NCBI GenBank assembly: GCA_958295985.1 | Contig: OY282432.1 | Span: 2,451,001-2,515,000 of the forward strand | Source: an uncultured Candidatus Binatia bacterium | Lineage (GTDB): Bacteria; Desulfobacterota; Binatia; UBA9968; JAJDTQ01 | Direction: 5' to 3' | DNA: 64,000 bases | Part shown: piece by piece, positions 58,668 to 64,000 of the stretch | How positions within the stretch are numbered: position 1 is the stretch's first letter | Layout of the letters: every line of letters starts with the position of its first letter | Program-made: the position numbers and the translations under genes | Notes under the pieces: generated by a model | Told to the model about the DNA's origin: nothing | Seen by the model: the letters and a program-made list of their open reading frames with translations, nothing else | Database searches by the model: none

Positions 58668-59426
58668 TTGGCAAGGATCGAAATCGACGAAGTTCTCGGA
58701 GGCTGGGAAGGCTACGAAGCAGTCGCCGTCAGACGAAACCGCGGAATGCTCGAAATCGAGCTCGACCCCCTTGCAGGGCGGCCCGGGATCTGCACCGGCT
58801 GCGGCCAGGAAGTGACGGCCGTGCACGGGTACGAGCGGCGTCGGGTGCGTGACCTGCCGGTCCTCGACGCGCCCACGAGCCTGCTGCTGCGGCGTCGGCG
58901 GCTGGCGTGTCCGCGGTGCGGGCCCAAGCTGGAACGGTTGAGCTGGCTGGCCCGCTATGCGCGGGTGACGCAACGGCTTGCCGACAACGTGGCGCAGTTG
59001 TGCACGGCGATGACCATCAAGCAAGTGGCGCAGCACTATCGCCTGGGGTGGGACGCGGTGAGGGACCTGGACCGGGGGTACCTGCAGCGCGCCGTCGGGC
59101 CGGTGGACTTGCACGGGGTGACCCGGTTGGTGATGGACGAGTTCGCGCTGCACAACGTGCAGAAGCTTGCCACGGTGATTACCGACGCGGTGACCCGGCG
59201 CGTGTTGTGGGTGGGCAAAGGGCGCAGCCGCGAAGATGTACGGCCGTTCTTCGAGTTGCTGGGCGCCGACGGTTGCAAGGCCATCGAGGCGGTGGCCATG
59301 GACATGAACAGCGCCTACGAGCCGGAGGTGCGGCGCCACTGCCCGCAGGCCAGGATCGTGTACGATCTGTTCCACTTGGTGGCCAAGTACGGCGTGCGCG
59401 GAAACCGGGCGCGTATCCGCGCATGA
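58668..59426 (+). pseudogene. Truncated ISL3-family transposase
   Basis: 252 codons corresponding to the first ~60% of an ISL3 transposase. The N-terminal zinc-binding part is CTGCGQEVTAVHGYERRRVRD followed by ACPRCGPKLERL; the helix-turn-helix segment TIKQVAQHYRLGWDAVRDL and the first catalytic block LVMDEFALH (Asp) and VAMDMNSAYEPEVRRHCPQA (Asp) are present. Similarity stops near VYDLFHLVAKYG and the frame closes in unrelated sequence, so the third acidic residue is missing. The break lies directly against the first RiPP repeat unit (about 59430), marking an insertion or deletion junction. Confidence 0.82.
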
Positions 59427-59484
59427 ATGCGCATGGCCCTTTCCACGGAAAACCCGGATGATCCACTGCTTGGAGTCGAGAGTG

Positions 59485-59513
59485 TTGACGTTGGGGCGGG
59501 TGTCCGCTATCCT
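59485..59513 (+). promoter_or_regulatory. Predicted promoter of RiPP precursor 1
   Basis: TTGACG (59485-59490) and TATCCT (59508-59513) are separated by 17 bp. It occupies the place of the four near-identical promoters downstream but has diverged, and lacks the GTTCCGGGAAC palindrome at the expected start site. Confidence 0.6.
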
Positions 59514-59574
59514 CCGGTGAGGTCGTTGGCGGTGGAGACGCGAACGGTACTGCCGCTCACGGGAGGCGACAGGT

Positions 59575-59856
59575 ATGGGGTCCCAAATGATGACCATTGC
59601 TGAATTGCGCGAGCACTTGATCGAGAGGGGGACCACGGACGCAGCGTTCCGGGCCCGGCTGCTCGCCGACCCGAAGGCCGCGATCAAGGAAGGGCTGGGC
59701 CTGGACCTTCCTGCCGGTTTCAATATCGTGGTGCACGAGGATCTCGCGGACACCGGCCATCTGGTGCTCCCGCCGTCGGCGGCGCTCGGCGAGAGCGAGC
59801 TGAGCCAGGCGGCAGGCGGCTCCCACACGCTCGACGAGATGCAGTGGAGGGGATAG
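59575..59856 (+). CDS. NHLP-leader RiPP precursor 1
   Basis: 93 residues. The leader (LREHLIERGTTDAAFRARLL, then ADPKAAIKEGLGLDLPAGFN and VVHEDLADTGHLVLPP) is the nitrile-hydratase-alpha-like leader of proteusin-type precursors, ending in QAAGG at 78-82. The predicted core is SHTLDEMQWRG (11 residues, one Trp, no Cys). The leader lies only about 75% along the A-type consensus of the other units, so this is the most diverged A copy. Its core-coding sequence is also found, non-translated in frame, after precursors 4 and 6, showing shared origin. GGGAGGCGAC serves as ribosome-binding site. Confidence 0.85.
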   Translation: MGSQMMTIAELREHLIERGTTDAAFRARLLADPKAAIKEGLGLDLPAGFNIVVHEDLADTGHLVLPPSAALGESELSQAAGGSHTLDEMQWRG

Positions 59857-59947
59857 CTCCTCGACGAGGGGCGGCTTCGGCTCGGTCCTTGCCGGATGCC
59901 ACCCCCTGTTCCCGCCCGCACTAGCGCCGCGATTCTCCGCCCCCGGA
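59857..59947 (+). pseudogene. Decayed copy of the 351-residue partner gene (unit 1)
   Basis: Bases 59857-59919 match the start of the gene at 61321 and its 5' flank, with the ATG changed to ACG; after a junction, 59924-59947 match bases 61723-61746 of the intact gene. So about 350 bases were deleted internally and everything downstream is gone. Confidence 0.75.
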
Positions 59948-60004
59948 CCGCATGGATGCTTTTCACGGAAAACCCGGATTATCCGCTTTTTTGGCGCTAC
60001 GGTG

Positions 60005-60047
60005 TTGACAACGAAGCAGGAGTTCGCTATCGTCCCGTTCCGGGAAC
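60005..60047 (+). promoter_or_regulatory. Promoter and palindromic operator of RiPP precursor 2
   Basis: TTGACA (60005-60010), 17 bp, TATCGT (60028-60033). GTTCCGGGAAC (60037-60047), a perfect 11-bp palindrome, covers the predicted transcription start. Upstream, CACGGAAAACCCGGATTATC and a T-run are also shared between units. Confidence 0.7.
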
Positions 60048-60107
60048 ATCTGCAGGCATCGTCGCCATGACGCTAAGGCCGGAGTCGACGGCGGCAAGGA
60101 GGATTTC

Positions 60108-60386
60108 ATGAGCACCAGGACCATGGGTGAACTGCGCGAGCAGGTGGTCGAGAGGGCGACCGTGGACGAGGAGTTCCGTGCGCGGTTGCTCGCCGAGCCC
60201 AAGGCCGCGATCGAGGAAGAGTTGGGCGTCAAGATTCCCGACGGTTTCACCGTCGAGGTGCACGAGGACGTCGAGGACACCAGCCATCTGGTGCTCCCGC
60301 CGCCGGCGTCCCTCGGCGAGAGCGAGCTGAGCCGGGCGGCAGGCGGCTTGTACACGATGGAGCAGTTGGAGTGGATGCACATTTGA
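60108..60386 (+). CDS. NHLP-leader RiPP precursor 2
   Basis: 92 residues. A-type leader (MSTRTMGELREQVVERATVD, FRARLLAEPKAAIEEELGVK, IPDGFTVEVHEDVEDTSHLV) with the cleavage site RAAGG at 76-80. The predicted core is LYTMEQLEWMHI (12 residues; Trp at position 9). The unit has its own promoter and palindrome and an AAGGAGG ribosome-binding site at 60096-60102. It is followed by a short remnant of the partner gene, so this unit no longer carries its own partner. Confidence 0.88.
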   Translation: MSTRTMGELREQVVERATVDEEFRARLLAEPKAAIEEELGVKIPDGFTVEVHEDVEDTSHLVLPPPASLGESELSRAAGGLYTMEQLEWMHI

Positions 60387-60395
60387 GGGGATAGC

Positions 60396-60433
60396 CTCCT
60401 CGACGAGGGGCGGCTTTGGCTCGGTCCTTGCCG
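60396..60433 (+). pseudogene. Short remnant of the partner gene (unit 2)
   Basis: About 38 bases match the 5' end of the gene at 61321, with the start changed ATG to ACG, then join directly to the next promoter unit. It marks a deletion of nearly the whole gene. Confidence 0.65.
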
Positions 60434-60501
60434 GCTGGATGGAGGCGCATGGACGCTTTTCACGGAAAACCCGGATTATCCGCTTTTTTGGCATCACGGT
60501 G

Positions 60502-60544
60502 TTGACAACGAAGCAGGAGTTCGCTATCGTCCCGTTCCGGGAAC
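60502..60544 (+). promoter_or_regulatory. Promoter and palindromic operator of RiPP unit 3
   Basis: TTGACA (60502-60507), 17 bp, TATCGT (60525-60530), then GTTCCGGGAAC (60534-60544) at the start site. Identical in the hexamers, spacer and palindrome to those of units 2 and 4. Confidence 0.7.
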
Positions 60545-60605
60545 ATCTGCAGGCATCGTCGCCACGACGCTAACGCCGGGTCGACGGCAAAACAAGGAGG
60601 ATTTC

Positions 60606-60893
60606 ATGAGCACCAAGACGATGAGTGAACTGCGCGAGCAGGTGGTCGAGAGGGCGACCGCGGACGAGGAGTTCCGGGCGCGGTTGCTCGCCGGGCCCAA
60701 GGCCGCGATCGAGGAAGAGTTGGGCGTCAAGATTCCCGACGGTTTCACCGTCGAGGTGCACGAGGATGTCGAGGACACCAGCCATCTGGTGCTTCCGCCG
60801 CCCGCGGCGCTCGGCGAGAGCGAGTTGGGCCAGGTGGCGGGTGGCAGAGGCAGCGGCAACGACGAAGCGATCACGTTCTGGGACGACTTCTAG
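60606..60893 (+). CDS. NHLP-leader RiPP precursor 3
   Basis: 95 residues. A-type leader as in precursor 2, cleavage site QVAGG at 76-80, predicted core RGSGNDEAITFWDDF (15 residues, one Trp). Its leader carries Gly30 where the other A copies have Glu. The core is identical to that of precursor 5, while the leader differs at only a few positions, showing a recent duplication. It begins the only complete unit, with precursor 4 and the partner gene following on the same strand. AAGGAGG precedes the ATG. Confidence 0.88.
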   Translation: MSTKTMSELREQVVERATADEEFRARLLAGPKAAIEEELGVKIPDGFTVEVHEDVEDTSHLVLPPPAALGESELGQVAGGRGSGNDEAITFWDDF

Positions 60894-60995
60894 GGAGCCG
60901 GTCCGGGTAGGGAACCCCGGATTCCGGGTCGAGCGCGGAATGACTATGGAGGATCGTTTCCAGTAACCATCACTCTGTTCGAGGAGGAGCGAACC

Positions 60996-61262
60996 ATGGA
61001 AACGGCAAAGGAAATGCAGGCGAGGATCGTGGGCAAGGCGGCCGAGGACTCGGACTTCCGCGCCCGGCTGCTGAGCGATCCGAAGGGGGCGATCGAGCAG
61101 GAGTTGGGCGTCACCATTCCAGCGTCCTTGTCGGTCGAGGTCCACGAAGAGAGCGGCGCGACCGCGCATCTGGTTCTTCCCCCCGACAGCAAGCTGAGCG
61201 AGGGCGAGATGCAGACGGTCGCCGGCGGGTTTCTTCCCCGTCGCGAAAAGCCTATCTGGTGA
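60996..61262 (+). CDS. NHLP-leader RiPP precursor 4 (B-type leader)
   Basis: 88 residues. A distinct B-type leader (METAKEMQARIVGKAAEDSD, FRARLLSDPKGAIEQELGVT, VEVHEESGATAHLVLPP) ends in TVAGG at 74-78; the predicted core is FLPRREKPIW (10 residues), cationic and ending in Trp. It sits about 100 bases after precursor 3 with its own ribosome-binding site (GAGGAGGAG) but no separate promoter, so it is probably co-transcribed. Downstream bases 61271-61323 still encode an out-of-place GGSHTLDEMQWRG, a vestige of another core. Confidence 0.87.
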   Translation: METAKEMQARIVGKAAEDSDFRARLLSDPKGAIEQELGVTIPASLSVEVHEESGATAHLVLPPDSKLSEGEMQTVAGGFLPRREKPIW

Positions 61263-61320
61263 CCCCGCCGGGCGGCTCCCACACGCTCGACGAGATGCAA
61301 TGGAGGGGACAGGCTCCTCG

Positions 61321-62376
61321 ATGAGGGGCGGCTTCGGCTCGGTCCTTGCCGGATGCCGCCCCCTGTTCCCCGCCCCGCTGGTCGATTCCACCGGCTGGAA
61401 ACGCCTCCTGGATCGAGCGGAGACGTTGCCCCGTTCCGTGACCGACACCCATTTCGGCTTCGAGTTTCATCTCGGAGAAGCGAGCGCGGACGCCGACCTC
61501 TGCGTGGTTGTGCCGCTGGGGTCCGCCCTGTCGCAGCACTATATCCGCGAGGGCGCGGACGCCGAGCCGGGGTCGGCGGCGGCCGCTCTCGGGGTGGTGC
61601 TTCTGGAACATGCCGGGAATCCGGAGTCCTACCTCGCCCGTTCCGTGGCCGCGGTGATGCTGGAATACGATCTGGCCGGACTCGATCCGCCTCCCCGGGT
61701 ATCCTCCCCCGGCATCTTCCTCGCGCCGCGATTCTCCGCCCCCGGATCGCGGGAGGGGGTCCTCGAGCATCGGGACCCCGAGAGCCTGCTCGCGACGCTC
61801 GCGGCCTTCGTCGGCTGGAGCGGCCACGAAGAATTTCTCCGAGGGGTCGAACGCATCCTTTCGGCCCTGCCGGAAACGGGTTGCGTGTTCCAGGCGGGAG
61901 CCCTCCCGGGGCGTTCCCCGAGGGCGTTCCGGATCCTTCTCAAGGGCATCGCCAAGGAGGAGGTCCCCGACCTGCTGGAGCGGTTGGAATGGCCCGGCCC
62001 GACGGCCGGGGCCCTGGACGTACTCACCTGCATGGACGACCTCGTGCCCTACTTCGCCGTCAGCGTGGACGTGGCCGCGCGGGGGTTGGGCCCGCGGCTC
62101 GGCCTGGAACTGTACCGCGCCCGGACCTGGTTTGCGGTCGATCGTACGGGGTGGCGCCCCCTGATCGCCCGGATCGAGGAGCAAGGCTGGTGCCTTCCCG
62201 CGAAAGCCGAAGGGCTGCGGCGCTGGCCGAGTATCGAACGGCTGCTGGGCGACGGAGAGATGTACGTCGTCCGCCAGGGTATCAACCACGTCAAGGTCGT
62301 CATCGAACGGGGCGCCCGAACGGTGGCGAAGGCCTACGTCGGCATGAGCGTGCTTCCGTACCGATCGGACCTCTAA
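61321..62376 (+). CDS. Unrecognised 351-residue protein encoded inside the RiPP array
   Basis: From the ATG at 61321 (the frame is open back to 61300) it begins MRGGFGSVLAGCRPLF. It is soluble, with a helix-rich middle (ESLLATLAAFVGWSGHEEFL) and a C-terminal part containing GWRPLIARIEEQGW and the closing block MYVVRQGINHVKVVIERG, then TVAKAYVGM. No radical-SAM cysteines, P-loop, LanC zinc site, protease triad or membrane helix is visible. I do not know its family. Similar KAY-containing endings exist in hypothetical proteins near RiPP precursors, and K-x-Y strands occur in ABBA prenyltransferases, but this is weak. GGAGGGGAC lies upstream. It is the only intact copy; three units have only fragments. 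Confidence 0.75.
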   Translation: MRGGFGSVLAGCRPLFPAPLVDSTGWKRLLDRAETLPRSVTDTHFGFEFHLGEASADADLCVVVPLGSALSQHYIREGADAEPGSAAAALGVVLLEHAGNPESYLARSVAAVMLEYDLAGLDPPPRVSSPGIFLAPRFSAPGSREGVLEHRDPESLLATLAAFVGWSGHEEFLRGVERILSALPETGCVFQAGALPGRSPRAFRILLKGIAKEEVPDLLERLEWPGPTAGALDVLTCMDDLVPYFAVSVDVAARGLGPRLGLELYRARTWFAVDRTGWRPLIARIEEQGWCLPAKAEGLRRWPSIERLLGDGEMYVVRQGINHVKVVIERGARTVAKAYVGMSVLPYRSDL

Positions 62377-62522
62377 CCGCGGCCGTTCGTGCGCGCGGCG
62401 CTGCGAATCCAACCCCCGAAACCCCCGCAGAACGGCGCGCGGCGAAATCACCCGCACGGACGGAAGCGCATGGACGCTTTTCACGGAAAACCCGGATTAT
62501 CCGCTTTTTTGGCATCACGGTG

Positions 62523-62565
62523 TTGACAACGAAGCAGGAGTTCGCTATCGTCCCGTTCCGGGAAC
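62523..62565 (+). promoter_or_regulatory. Promoter and palindromic operator of RiPP unit 4
   Basis: TTGACA (62523-62528), 17 bp, TATCGT (62546-62551), then GTTCCGGGAAC (62555-62565). The whole region from about 62468 to the ATG at 62628 is almost identical to that of unit 3. Confidence 0.7.
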
Positions 62566-62627
62566 ATCTGCAGGCATCGTCGCCACGACGCTAACGCCGG
62601 GGTCGACGGCAAAACAAGGAGGATTTC

Positions 62628-62915
62628 ATGAGCACCAAGACGATGAGTGAACTGCGCGAGCAGGTGGTCGAGAGGGCGACCATGGACGAGGAGTTCCGGG
62701 CGCGGTTGCTCGCCGAGCCCAAGGCCGCGATCGAGGAAGAGTTGGGCGTCAAGATTCCCGACGGTTTCACCGTCGAGGTGCACGAGGATGTCGAGGACAC
62801 CAGCCATCTGGTGCTCCCGCCGCCCGCGGCGCTCGGCGAGAGCGAGTTGGGCCAGGTGGCGGGTGGCAGGGGCAGCGGCAACGACGAAGCGATCACGTTC
62901 TGGGACGACTTCTAG
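62628..62915 (+). CDS. NHLP-leader RiPP precursor 5
   Basis: 95 residues. A-type leader with the QVAGG site at 76-80 and core RGSGNDEAITFWDDF, identical in core to precursor 3. Differences are limited to a few leader positions (for example Met for Ala at 19, Glu for Gly at 30). Gene dosage, rather than diversity, would be the effect of this pair. AAGGAGG precedes the ATG and the promoter copy is intact, so it should be expressed. Confidence 0.88.
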   Translation: MSTKTMSELREQVVERATMDEEFRARLLAEPKAAIEEELGVKIPDGFTVEVHEDVEDTSHLVLPPPAALGESELGQVAGGRGSGNDEAITFWDDF

Positions 62916-62966
62916 GGAGCCGGTCCGGGTACGTAACCATAACTCTATTCAAGGAGGAGCAAACCA

Positions 62967-63248
62967 ATGGAAACGGCAAAGGAAATGCAGGCGAAGATCG
63001 TGGGCAAGGCGAGCGAGGACGCGGACTTCCGCGCCCGGCTGCTGAGCGATCCGAAGGGGGCGATCGAGCAGGAGTTGGGCGTCACCATTCCGGCGTCCCT
63101 GTCGGTCGAGGTCCACGAAGAGAGCGGCGCGACCGCGCATCTGGTTCTTCCCCCCGACAGCAAGCTGAGCGAGGGCGAGATGCAGACGGTCGCCGGCGGT
63201 ATGTTTGGCTTGGTCAACGAACAGCATCGCCGGGAGCTCAATTGGTAA
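62967..63248 (+). CDS. NHLP-leader RiPP precursor 6 (B-type leader)
   Basis: 93 residues. B-type leader nearly identical to precursor 4 (METAKEMQAKIVGKASEDAD), ending in TVAGG at 74-78, but with a completely different predicted core, MFGLVNEQHRRELNW (15 residues, Trp last). The contrast of a near-constant leader with a replaced core, after a double Gly, is typical of RiPP diversification. The ribosome-binding site is AAGGAGGAG; it is probably co-transcribed with precursor 5, 51 bases upstream. Confidence 0.87.
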   Translation: METAKEMQAKIVGKASEDADFRARLLSDPKGAIEQELGVTIPASLSVEVHEESGATAHLVLPPDSKLSEGEMQTVAGGMFGLVNEQHRRELNW

Positions 63249-63306
63249 TCCCGCCGGGCGGCTCCCACACGCTCGACGAGATGCAATGGAGGGGACAGGC
63301 TCCTCG

Positions 63307-63403
63307 ATGAGGGGCGGCTTCGGCTCGGTCCTTGCCGGATGCCGCCCCCTGTTCCCCGTCCCACTGGTCGATTCCACCGGCTGGAAACGCCTCCTGGATC
63401 GAA
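63307..63403 (+). pseudogene. Truncated copy of the partner gene (unit 4)
   Basis: It keeps the ATG and about 32 codons of the gene at 61321 with few changes (SVLAGCRPLFPVPLVDSTGW), then jumps to the sequence preceding the next promoter unit. The flank at 63256-63306 carries the same vestigial GGSHTLDEMQWRG core sequence. It is non-functional as a full protein. Confidence 0.8.
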
Positions 63404-63476
63404 GAGCAAACGGACGGAAGCGCATGGATGCTTTCCACGGAAAACCCGGATGATCCACCTTTTTGGCGTCACGGTG

Positions 63477-63519
63477 TTGACATCGAAGTAGGAGTTCGCT
63501 ATCGTCCCGTTCCGGGAAC
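63477..63519 (+). promoter_or_regulatory. Promoter and palindromic operator of RiPP unit 5
   Basis: TTGACA (63477-63482), 17 bp, TATCGT (63500-63505), then GTTCCGGGAAC (63509-63519). The spacer differs at two positions from units 2-4. Confidence 0.7.
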
Positions 63520-63581
63520 ATCTGCAGGCATCGTCGCCACGACGCTAACGCCGGGGTCGACGGCAAAACAAGGAGGATTTC

Positions 63582-63866
63582 ATGAGCACCAAGACGATGA
63601 GTGAACTGCGCGAGCAGGTGGTCGAGAGGGCGACCATGGACGAGGAGTTCCGTGCGCGGTTGCTCGCCGAGCCCAAGGCCGCGATCGAGGAAGAGTTGGG
63701 CGTCAAGATTCCCGACGGTTTCACCGTCGAGGTGCACGGGGATGTCGAGGACACCAGCCATCTGGTGCTTCCGCCGCCCACGACGCTCGGCGAGGGCGAG
63801 CTGGGCCAGGTGGCGGGTGGGCACCACGACAACGAACTGACCGCGCGGGAACTGTTCTGGAGCTAG
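63582..63866 (+). CDS. NHLP-leader RiPP precursor 7
   Basis: 94 residues. A-type leader with QVAGG at 76-80; a Gly replaces the Glu at 53 of VHEDVEDTSHLVLPP. The predicted core is HHDNELTARELFWS (14 residues, Trp at 13, two leading His). It is the last gene in the window, and the bases after it (63867-63925) resemble the interval between precursors 3 and 4, so further array members may lie beyond the edge. Confidence 0.88.
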   Translation: MSTKTMSELREQVVERATMDEEFRARLLAEPKAAIEEELGVKIPDGFTVEVHGDVEDTSHLVLPPPTTLGEGELGQVAGGHHDNELTARELFWS

Positions 63867-63936
63867 GGAGCCGGTCCGGGTAAGGAACCCCGGATTCCGG
63901 GTCGAGCGCGGAACGGCGATGGAGGATCTTCTCCCG

Positions 63937-63960
63937 TCATTCCCGCGAAAGCGGGGACCG
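63937..63960. repeat. Dispersed hairpin repeat CATTCCCGCGAAAGCGGGG
   Basis: A copy of the REP-like palindrome at 30216 (stem CCCGC/GCGGG with GAAA loop), lying 70 bases after the last precursor gene. It may mark the end of the transcript. Confidence 0.55.
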
Positions 63961-64000
63961 GGGGCTCGGACAGGCTCATGGGAGCCGTCTCCGGCGGGCT

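Follow-up and report, generated by a model that had tools for sequence, protein, structure and literature searches.

A tandem array of peptide precursors with NHLP-type leaders was studied at the end of a 64,000-nucleotide stretch of an uncultured Candidatus Binatia bacterium (GenBank assembly GCA_958295985.1, contig OY282432.1; the whole stretch, G000:C1:2451001-2515000, is called the window, G000 is the source genome, and other loci that were extracted carry L-numbers). The array probably belongs to a locus for ribosomally synthesised and post-translationally modified peptides (RiPPs) that makes many short tryptophan-modified products, with prenyltransferases of the ABBA (alpha-beta-beta-alpha) fold adding an isoprenoid to the Trp of the core. 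What is shown of this scheme are the precursors, a rule for Trp in their cores, the predicted fold of a protein family termed X, exporter genes, the sharing of cores between genomes and leaderless copies of core DNA (ghost cores).

Large NHLP families are said to have been known from work by Haft in 2010. Seven open reading frames (93, 92, 95, 88, 95, 93 and 94 amino acids) were found at window positions 59575-63866, and all seven exceeded the curated cut-off of TIGR03793 (50.9 bits) used for precursor calling, with scores of 52.0-73.6 bits. The whole array contains 18 NHLP precursors, from window position 59575 to G000:C1:2523722, all over the cut-off and all with open reading frames. The preliminary description, made from the letters of the window, was thus correct in its seven precursors of 88-95 residues, in their NHLP leaders, in the continuation of the array past the window edge, and in its two leader types (A in precursors 1, 2, 3, 5 and 7; B in precursors 4 and 6). 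The five promoter-precursor units that it described were recovered as a 300-nt repeat family of five copies (69-100% identity) and as five sigma-70-like sites (TTGACA-17-TATCGT-like, 17-nt spacer), compared with 0.4 expected from shuffles. The leader ended in GG in 17 of the 18 precursors. Precursor 10 (L023:10049-10339) carries GQ at this point, and cleavage there may fail or differ.

The preliminary description had stated that no maturase was present in the 4 kb, which did not hold, as a gene with a predicted prenyltransferase fold (X1, Table 1) lies among the precursors. It is one of three full-length X paralogues within the array, the others being at L023:6016-7158 and L023:11573-12715. 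The AlphaFold2 (AF2) model of X1 had a pLDDT of 87.3, and the X model matched ABBA enzymes with Foldseek and VIA-align, predicting an alpha-beta-beta-alpha barrel; an isoprenoid-synthase fold was absent among the matches listed. No Pfam or NCBIfam model matched X. The X profile, compared with PDB sequences, retrieved nothing beyond two PARP14 entries (lowest E 0.018), which were rejected. In 36 X sequences, Glu122, Arg/Lys211, Lys332 and Tyr346 were near-invariant and K344 was also conserved; these would correspond to the basic and Tyr residues on barrel strands and the Glu of known ABBA active sites. On its modelled structure, X is predicted to be an ABBA-fold prenyltransferase acting on the core Trp, with X1 presumably serving the type-A leaders and X2 the type-B leaders.

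Trp was counted in the loci with X1 or X2 (L023, L028-L033 and L036; L028 and L033 are one genome), which yielded 71 precursors with a readable leader end; two reverse-strand NHLP-like frames (L029) and three X3-type precursors (L034, L035, L037) were left out of the original 76 frames. Every one of the 71 cores, including the 18 from this array, contained Trp and no Cys, and Trp was the terminal residue in 46. The 71 leaders, one of them only 9 residues long, contained 3 Trp in 5049 residues. A crude pattern divided the leaders into 23 of type A and 48 of type B, with terminal Trp in 3 and 43, respectively; these counts are rough, because they class as A a truncated leader (L029, core RKRWFMGRYVHNNW) and at least one leader that looks like B (L030, core MRAKEIASGLEQLIRSW). 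Two further precursors of congener G405 (L072) ended in W. As a control, nine over-cut-off NHLP precursors were taken from four phylum genomes in which the first X profile found nothing, and Trp, judged by eye, was present in two tails and terminal in none. The motif L(X)4L was present in 68 of the 71 leaders, and L(X)4[LM] in 70. This motif docks other enzymes onto NHLP leaders (PMC12455567, PMC10858898).

Plasmid-borne distant homologues of X (Azospirillum B510, Pseudanabaena galeata and Nostoc UHCC 0926) also adjoin NHLP or Nif11 precursors, and two such precursors in Azospirillum and one in Pseudanabaena end in W. In Pseudanabaena galeata, the X homologue and a 2OG-Fe(II) oxygenase form one fused protein (L103:5461-7266), which adjoins LanM and the Nif11 precursor ending in W. 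Proteins of about 600 amino acids without a Pfam match, alike by eye, adjoin the X homologue in Pseudanabaena (L103:7241-9049) and Azospirillum (L105:2659-4458).

Genes for two exporter proteins were found downstream of the array on the opposite strand, namely ABC2 (TIGR03797, 748.4 bits; cut-off 709.4) and C39-ABC (TIGR03796, 892.4 bits; cut-off 853.3). A JmjC_2 protein is encoded inside the array (L023:7563-8927, E 5e-25; family PF08007, which we take to be the one formerly named cupin-4), with homologues in L028, L029, L030 and L036. Beyond the exporter lies S, a protein of 337 amino acids that matched squalene-hopene cyclase below threshold (E 0.0011) and has homologues in L028, L029, L030, L032 and L036. 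An NHLP-type domain is fused in-frame to an S-like protein in a congener locus (L069:3593-5035, + strand) that resembles the proteusin cluster srp. The preliminary description had named as refuting either a lack of NHLP matches or flanks devoid of RiPP genes together with an absence of related arrays from sister genomes. Neither refutation held: the NHLP matches were strong, the flank contains the NHLM exporter and the JmjC enzyme, and related arrays were found in other genomes. A genome search gave no matches for Trp halogenase (PF04820), YcaO (PF02624) or LanC-like proteins (PF05147), and no radical SAM maturase was found in ten locus proteins scanned, the genome having had no dedicated search for one.

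Taken together, we infer prenylation and its site, as well as the cyclisation, cleavage and function discussed here, as follows. X1 and X2 would dock on the leader, probably close to its L(X)4L motif, and transfer an isoprenoid to the Trp of the core; in type-B precursors this Trp is usually C-terminal. The JmjC oxygenase may then hydroxylate the core, and S may cyclise the isoprenoid, as suggested by its homologues in other loci, by the NHLP fusion in L069 and by NctPC, a known fusion of an ABBA enzyme and a cyclase that acts on Trp; this step is weak because the structure model of S failed. C39 peptidases cleave after GG, and C39-ABC would cut the precursors there and, with ABC2 and an HlyD protein, export peptides of about 9-27 residues. 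New cores would enter at the leader-core junction, and the cluster has moved between bacterial classes.

The cores fell into 34 families, 13 in at least two genomes and 21 in one locus only. The preliminary description had called the tails hypervariable, which was overstated, as precursors 3 and 5 share a core and 8 of the 18 array precursors have a core with an equal-length match of at least 70% in another genome (7 identical; 10 without such a match). Shuffled cores gave 0 matches in 36,000 at the same criterion. Recurring cores include FERHEGFYNINW and GDWNITSDW; RGSGNDEAITFWDDF is common to three Gammaproteobacteria metagenome-assembled genomes (MAGs), and MFGLVNEQHRRELNW and ARPRGQEWDPRTW to an Alphaproteobacteria MAG. 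The synonymous changes show that recent copying alone does not account for the identical cores. Part of the cores look, from these comparisons, like a conserved shared repertoire rather than free diversification; a set of cores would be preserved with hardly any change, as one would predict if every peptide of this kind served a task of its own.

X was found in 14 of 148 class genomes, its own included, among them six of the eight congeners listed, and in 3 of 297 sampled phylum genomes with a smaller profile (own included; one marginal, E 9.5e-4). A scan of genome contigs yielded 10 loci, spread over 8 records that all bear the title MAG; viral contigs gave no relative of X, and plasmid searches gave only distant relatives of X and S. 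No 16S rRNA was found in the assembly and RpoB was used for kinship: in the longest pieces, the G000 protein shared 61% identity with its alphaproteobacterial counterpart and 59-64% with the gammaproteobacterial ones. The C39-ABC proteins were 83-85% identical across the three loci that have them, compared with 59-64% for RpoB, which indicates that the cluster moved horizontally between bacterial classes. Several of the X-carrying MAGs are, judging by isolate names, presumably sponge symbionts. The core LCCCW in three congeners equals that of SrpE, which was described from marine sponge microbiomes (PMC10286304). It might tentatively be proposed, although we consider it doubtful, that bacteria from different classes or phyla which live side by side, probably in sponges, have a set of short terpenoid-capped Trp peptides in common behind diverging leaders, made via split prenyltransferase-cyclase pairs, as a common, horizontally passed signal or defence set whose cores enter at the leader-core junction.

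Several points weigh against Trp prenylation by X or other parts of the scheme. The predicted fold of X, taken from a model, is not equal to its function. Of the 18 cores in the array, no more than 10 have a terminal Trp. In the X3 clade, which belongs to srp-like loci, Trp is missing from five of eight precursors (LCCCG, RCCC), the other three ending in LCCCW, and it is also missing from three Nostoc precursors beside an X homologue, so Trp cannot be the acceptor in every case. The HlyD protein after C39-ABC had TIGR03794 as its best model, at 91.3 bits, below the cut-off of 156.2. The structure model of S was poor (pLDDT 44), and its Asp motif reads DLDS instead of the DxDD that we assume for a cyclase. 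No receptor or immunity gene was recognised nearby. As to the shared repertoire of cores, precursor pairs between genomes were chosen by core identity (0.70 filter), which favours conserved cores; the 11 pairs with the alphaproteobacterium had 0.146 synonymous and 0.159 non-synonymous changes per codon in cores, and non-synonymous changes in 22 Gammaproteobacteria pairs (leaders 0.064, cores 0.057) showed nearly equal conservation.

The X3 loci speak for the idea that X keeps the fold without prenylating Trp, as a leader-binding scaffold or a modifier of another group, with Trp needed for recognition by the exporter or another enzyme. X3 adjoins YcaO where the cores mostly (five of eight) end in CCC or CCCG without Trp. 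We nevertheless consider this unlikely, given the near-invariant residues Glu122, Arg/Lys211, Lys332 and Tyr346, the presence of Trp in all cores of the X1/X2 loci, and the terminal Trp beside the Azospirillum and Pseudanabaena homologues. YcaO beside X3 was matched with an E of about 1e-98 in the two loci scanned. X3 adjoins YcaO in the congener loci L065, L067, L068, L069, L070 and L071. Most of these loci also encode a desaturase-like fusion protein, and methyltransferases occur in some; the precursors found had LCCCW or RCCC as core, and none was found in L071. In the srp-like loci L034 (17543-19957) and L037 (5106-7343), a fatty-acid-desaturase domain and a GlnE-like nucleotidyltransferase domain are combined in one fusion protein.

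The DNA of the precursor 1 core, GGSHTLDEMQWRG, recurs without a leader just 3' of the stops of precursors 4 and 6 (94-95% over 100-105 nt), attached to the X1 5' end. These ghost cores are most simply explained by insertion of a core together with a type-B precursor into an older precursor at its GG junction, and they support exchange at the leader-core junction. The ancestral unit would have been a promoter, a type-A precursor and X1, because X1 remnants follow precursors 1, 2 and 6. The preliminary description had proposed a peptide-diversifying locus with cores swapped behind a fixed leader; this was supported in part, as its NHLP precursors and tandem units stood and the ghost cores fit exchange behind the leader, but a putative maturase gene lies inside the interval and part of the cores look conserved. 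Free variation or swapping is consistent with the ghost cores, with the 21 single-locus families, with the 10 array precursors lacking a similar core elsewhere and with the nearly equal rates in the alphaproteobacterial cores, but as an account of the array it is improbable. Eight array precursors have a core that recurs in other classes, compared with 0 matches in 36,000 for the shuffles. In the 23 pairs with G000, selected by core identity as above, non-synonymous change per codon was 0.051 in cores and 0.241 in leaders, at similar synonymous change (0.189 and 0.180); over all 52 pairs the values were 0.147 synonymous and 0.072 non-synonymous for cores, and 0.116 and 0.173 for leaders. Among 39 precursors with both kinds of relative, the leader was closest to a same-core precursor elsewhere in 23 and to a home paralogue in 16, which disfavours frequent swapping; on this comparison of leaders, core swapping is not constant.

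Trp could also be the site of another modification, such as JmjC hydroxylation or srp-like bromination. JmjC homologues are present in four other loci, and SrpE, an NHLP peptide, is brominated at its terminal Trp by SrpI (PMC10858898). This alternative is quite improbable, as the genome has no PF04820 halogenase and L032, a 21-kb alphaproteobacterial locus without a JmjC match, keeps both X2 and terminal Trp. That the array is mostly inert debris of IS-driven duplication, as the truncated ISL3 transposase at its border and the trailing X1 remnants might suggest, is very improbable in view of the 18 open frames, the promoter-like sites kept, the three full-length X genes, the intact exporter genes and the purifying pattern in the shared cores.

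Parts of the favoured scheme, prenylation of core Trp by X, are known separately: PalQ prenylates the Trp of an NHLP peptide, MppC is an ABBA enzyme for Nif11 peptides, and NctPC pairs a prenyltransferase with a cyclase. PalX of Paenibacillus alvei is an NHLP precursor whose C-terminal Trp is prenylated by PalQ, enhanced by the leader, but PalQ belongs, like ComQ, to the isoprenoid-synthase superfamily and not to ABBA, and the pal cluster comprises three genes, with a histidine kinase and a single precursor but no array (PMC10853753). MppC is of ABBA type and prenylates core Trp in a leader-dependent manner, as proposed for X, but in the mpp cluster with a Nif11 leader and a LanM macrocycle (PMC12715784); an X homologue does occur in the Pseudanabaena Nif11/LanM locus. 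NctPC (Hubrich 2024) acts on Trp with an ABBA domain of low similarity to cyanobactin enzymes and an MstE-like terpene cyclase domain in one fusion enzyme (PMC13290415), whereas X and S are separate genes. The srp/mpr proteusin clusters have NHLP precursors, and the SrpE core LCCCW is the core beside X3 in three congeners (PMC10858898, PMC10286304, PMC12455567); they differ in YcaO azolines and the flavin brominase SrpI, both families without a match in this genome, and in a Cys-rich core. Cyanobactin F-family prenyltransferases share the ABBA fold and peptide substrates (PMC12715784, PMC10853753) but are leader-independent with mostly macrocyclic substrates (PMC12715784), and no Pfam or NCBIfam match ties X to them. 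Sponge gene-cluster families combine cupin-4, a cupin-type oxygenase, with NHLP, and the main text of their report mentions no prenyl enzyme (PMC9426513). In the literature searched, no report of NHLP arrays with ABBA prenyltransferases was found, nor of the combination, the unannotated X family, an 18-substrate array or cross-class recurrence of cores. If true, this would be a new RiPP-linked ABBA prenyltransferase family missed by Pfam and NCBIfam, with many natural linear substrates per locus, which could serve peptide lipidation and help to interpret NHLP arrays. As cores of 9-20 residues recur between classes, what the peptides do can be tested directly by synthesis.

Table 1. Features of the array within the window (window positions).
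Feature	Position	Strand	Evidence or remark
Truncated ISL3-family transposase, upstream array border	58668..59426	+	PF01610 positions 1-93 of 240 only, PF13542, PF14690; phrog_5749
Promoter-like site, unit 1 (TTGACG-17-TATCCT)	59485..59513	+	motif scan
Precursor 1, leader A, core SHTLDEMQWRG	59575..59856	+	TIGR03793 52.0 bits
X1 5'-end remnant, 3' of precursor 1	59856..59922	+	repeat D6; weak X match E 4.8e-5
Promoter-like site, unit 2 (TTGACA-17-TATCGT)	60005..60033	+	motif scan
Precursor 2, leader A, core LYTMEQLEWMHI	60108..60386	+	TIGR03793 63.0 bits
X1 5' remnant, 3' of precursor 2	about 60385-60437	+	DNA repeat comparison
Promoter-like site, unit 3	60502..60530	+	motif scan
Precursor 3, leader A, core RGSGNDEAITFWDDF	60606..60893	+	TIGR03793 67.2 bits; identical core in three Gammaproteobacteria MAGs
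Precursor 4, leader B, core FLPRREKPIW	60996..61262	+	TIGR03793 73.4 bits
Ghost core, leaderless DNA copy of precursor 1 core GGSHTLDEMQWRG, 3' of precursor 4 stop	61271..61309	+	94% over 105 nt incl. X1 5' end
X1, predicted ABBA-fold peptide (Trp) prenyltransferase	61300..62376	+	358 aa as listed, true start uncertain; AF2, Foldseek, VIA-align
Promoter-like site, unit 4	62523..62551	+	motif scan
Precursor 5, leader A, core as precursor 3	62628..62915	+	TIGR03793 68.8 bits
Precursor 6, leader B, core MFGLVNEQHRRELNW	62967..63248	+	TIGR03793 73.6 bits; identical core in Alphaproteobacteria MAG
Ghost core and truncated X1 5' end, 3' of precursor 6	63257..63402	+	95% over 100 nt; repeat D7 98%; X fragment E 1e-14
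Promoter-like site, unit 5	63477..63505	+	motif scan
Precursor 7, leader A, core HHDNELTARELFWS; array runs past window edge	63582..63866	+	TIGR03793 63.5 bits

No Rfam match at gathering score and no tRNA was found in the window. Weaker TIGR03793 matches at C1:3042359 and 2602897-2603295 were below the cut-off and within longer frames; they are probably false positives of nitrile hydratase type and were set aside. A palindrome-like intergenic repeat, CCCGCGAAAGCGGG, is present at 63935-63965, 3' of the last precursor of the window. Far from the array, an orphan NHLP precursor at C1:1712860, with a core ending in NW, adjoins a broken X2-like fragment (G000:C1:1712505-1713081; L012, L025), and the two are a decayed satellite copy of the array.

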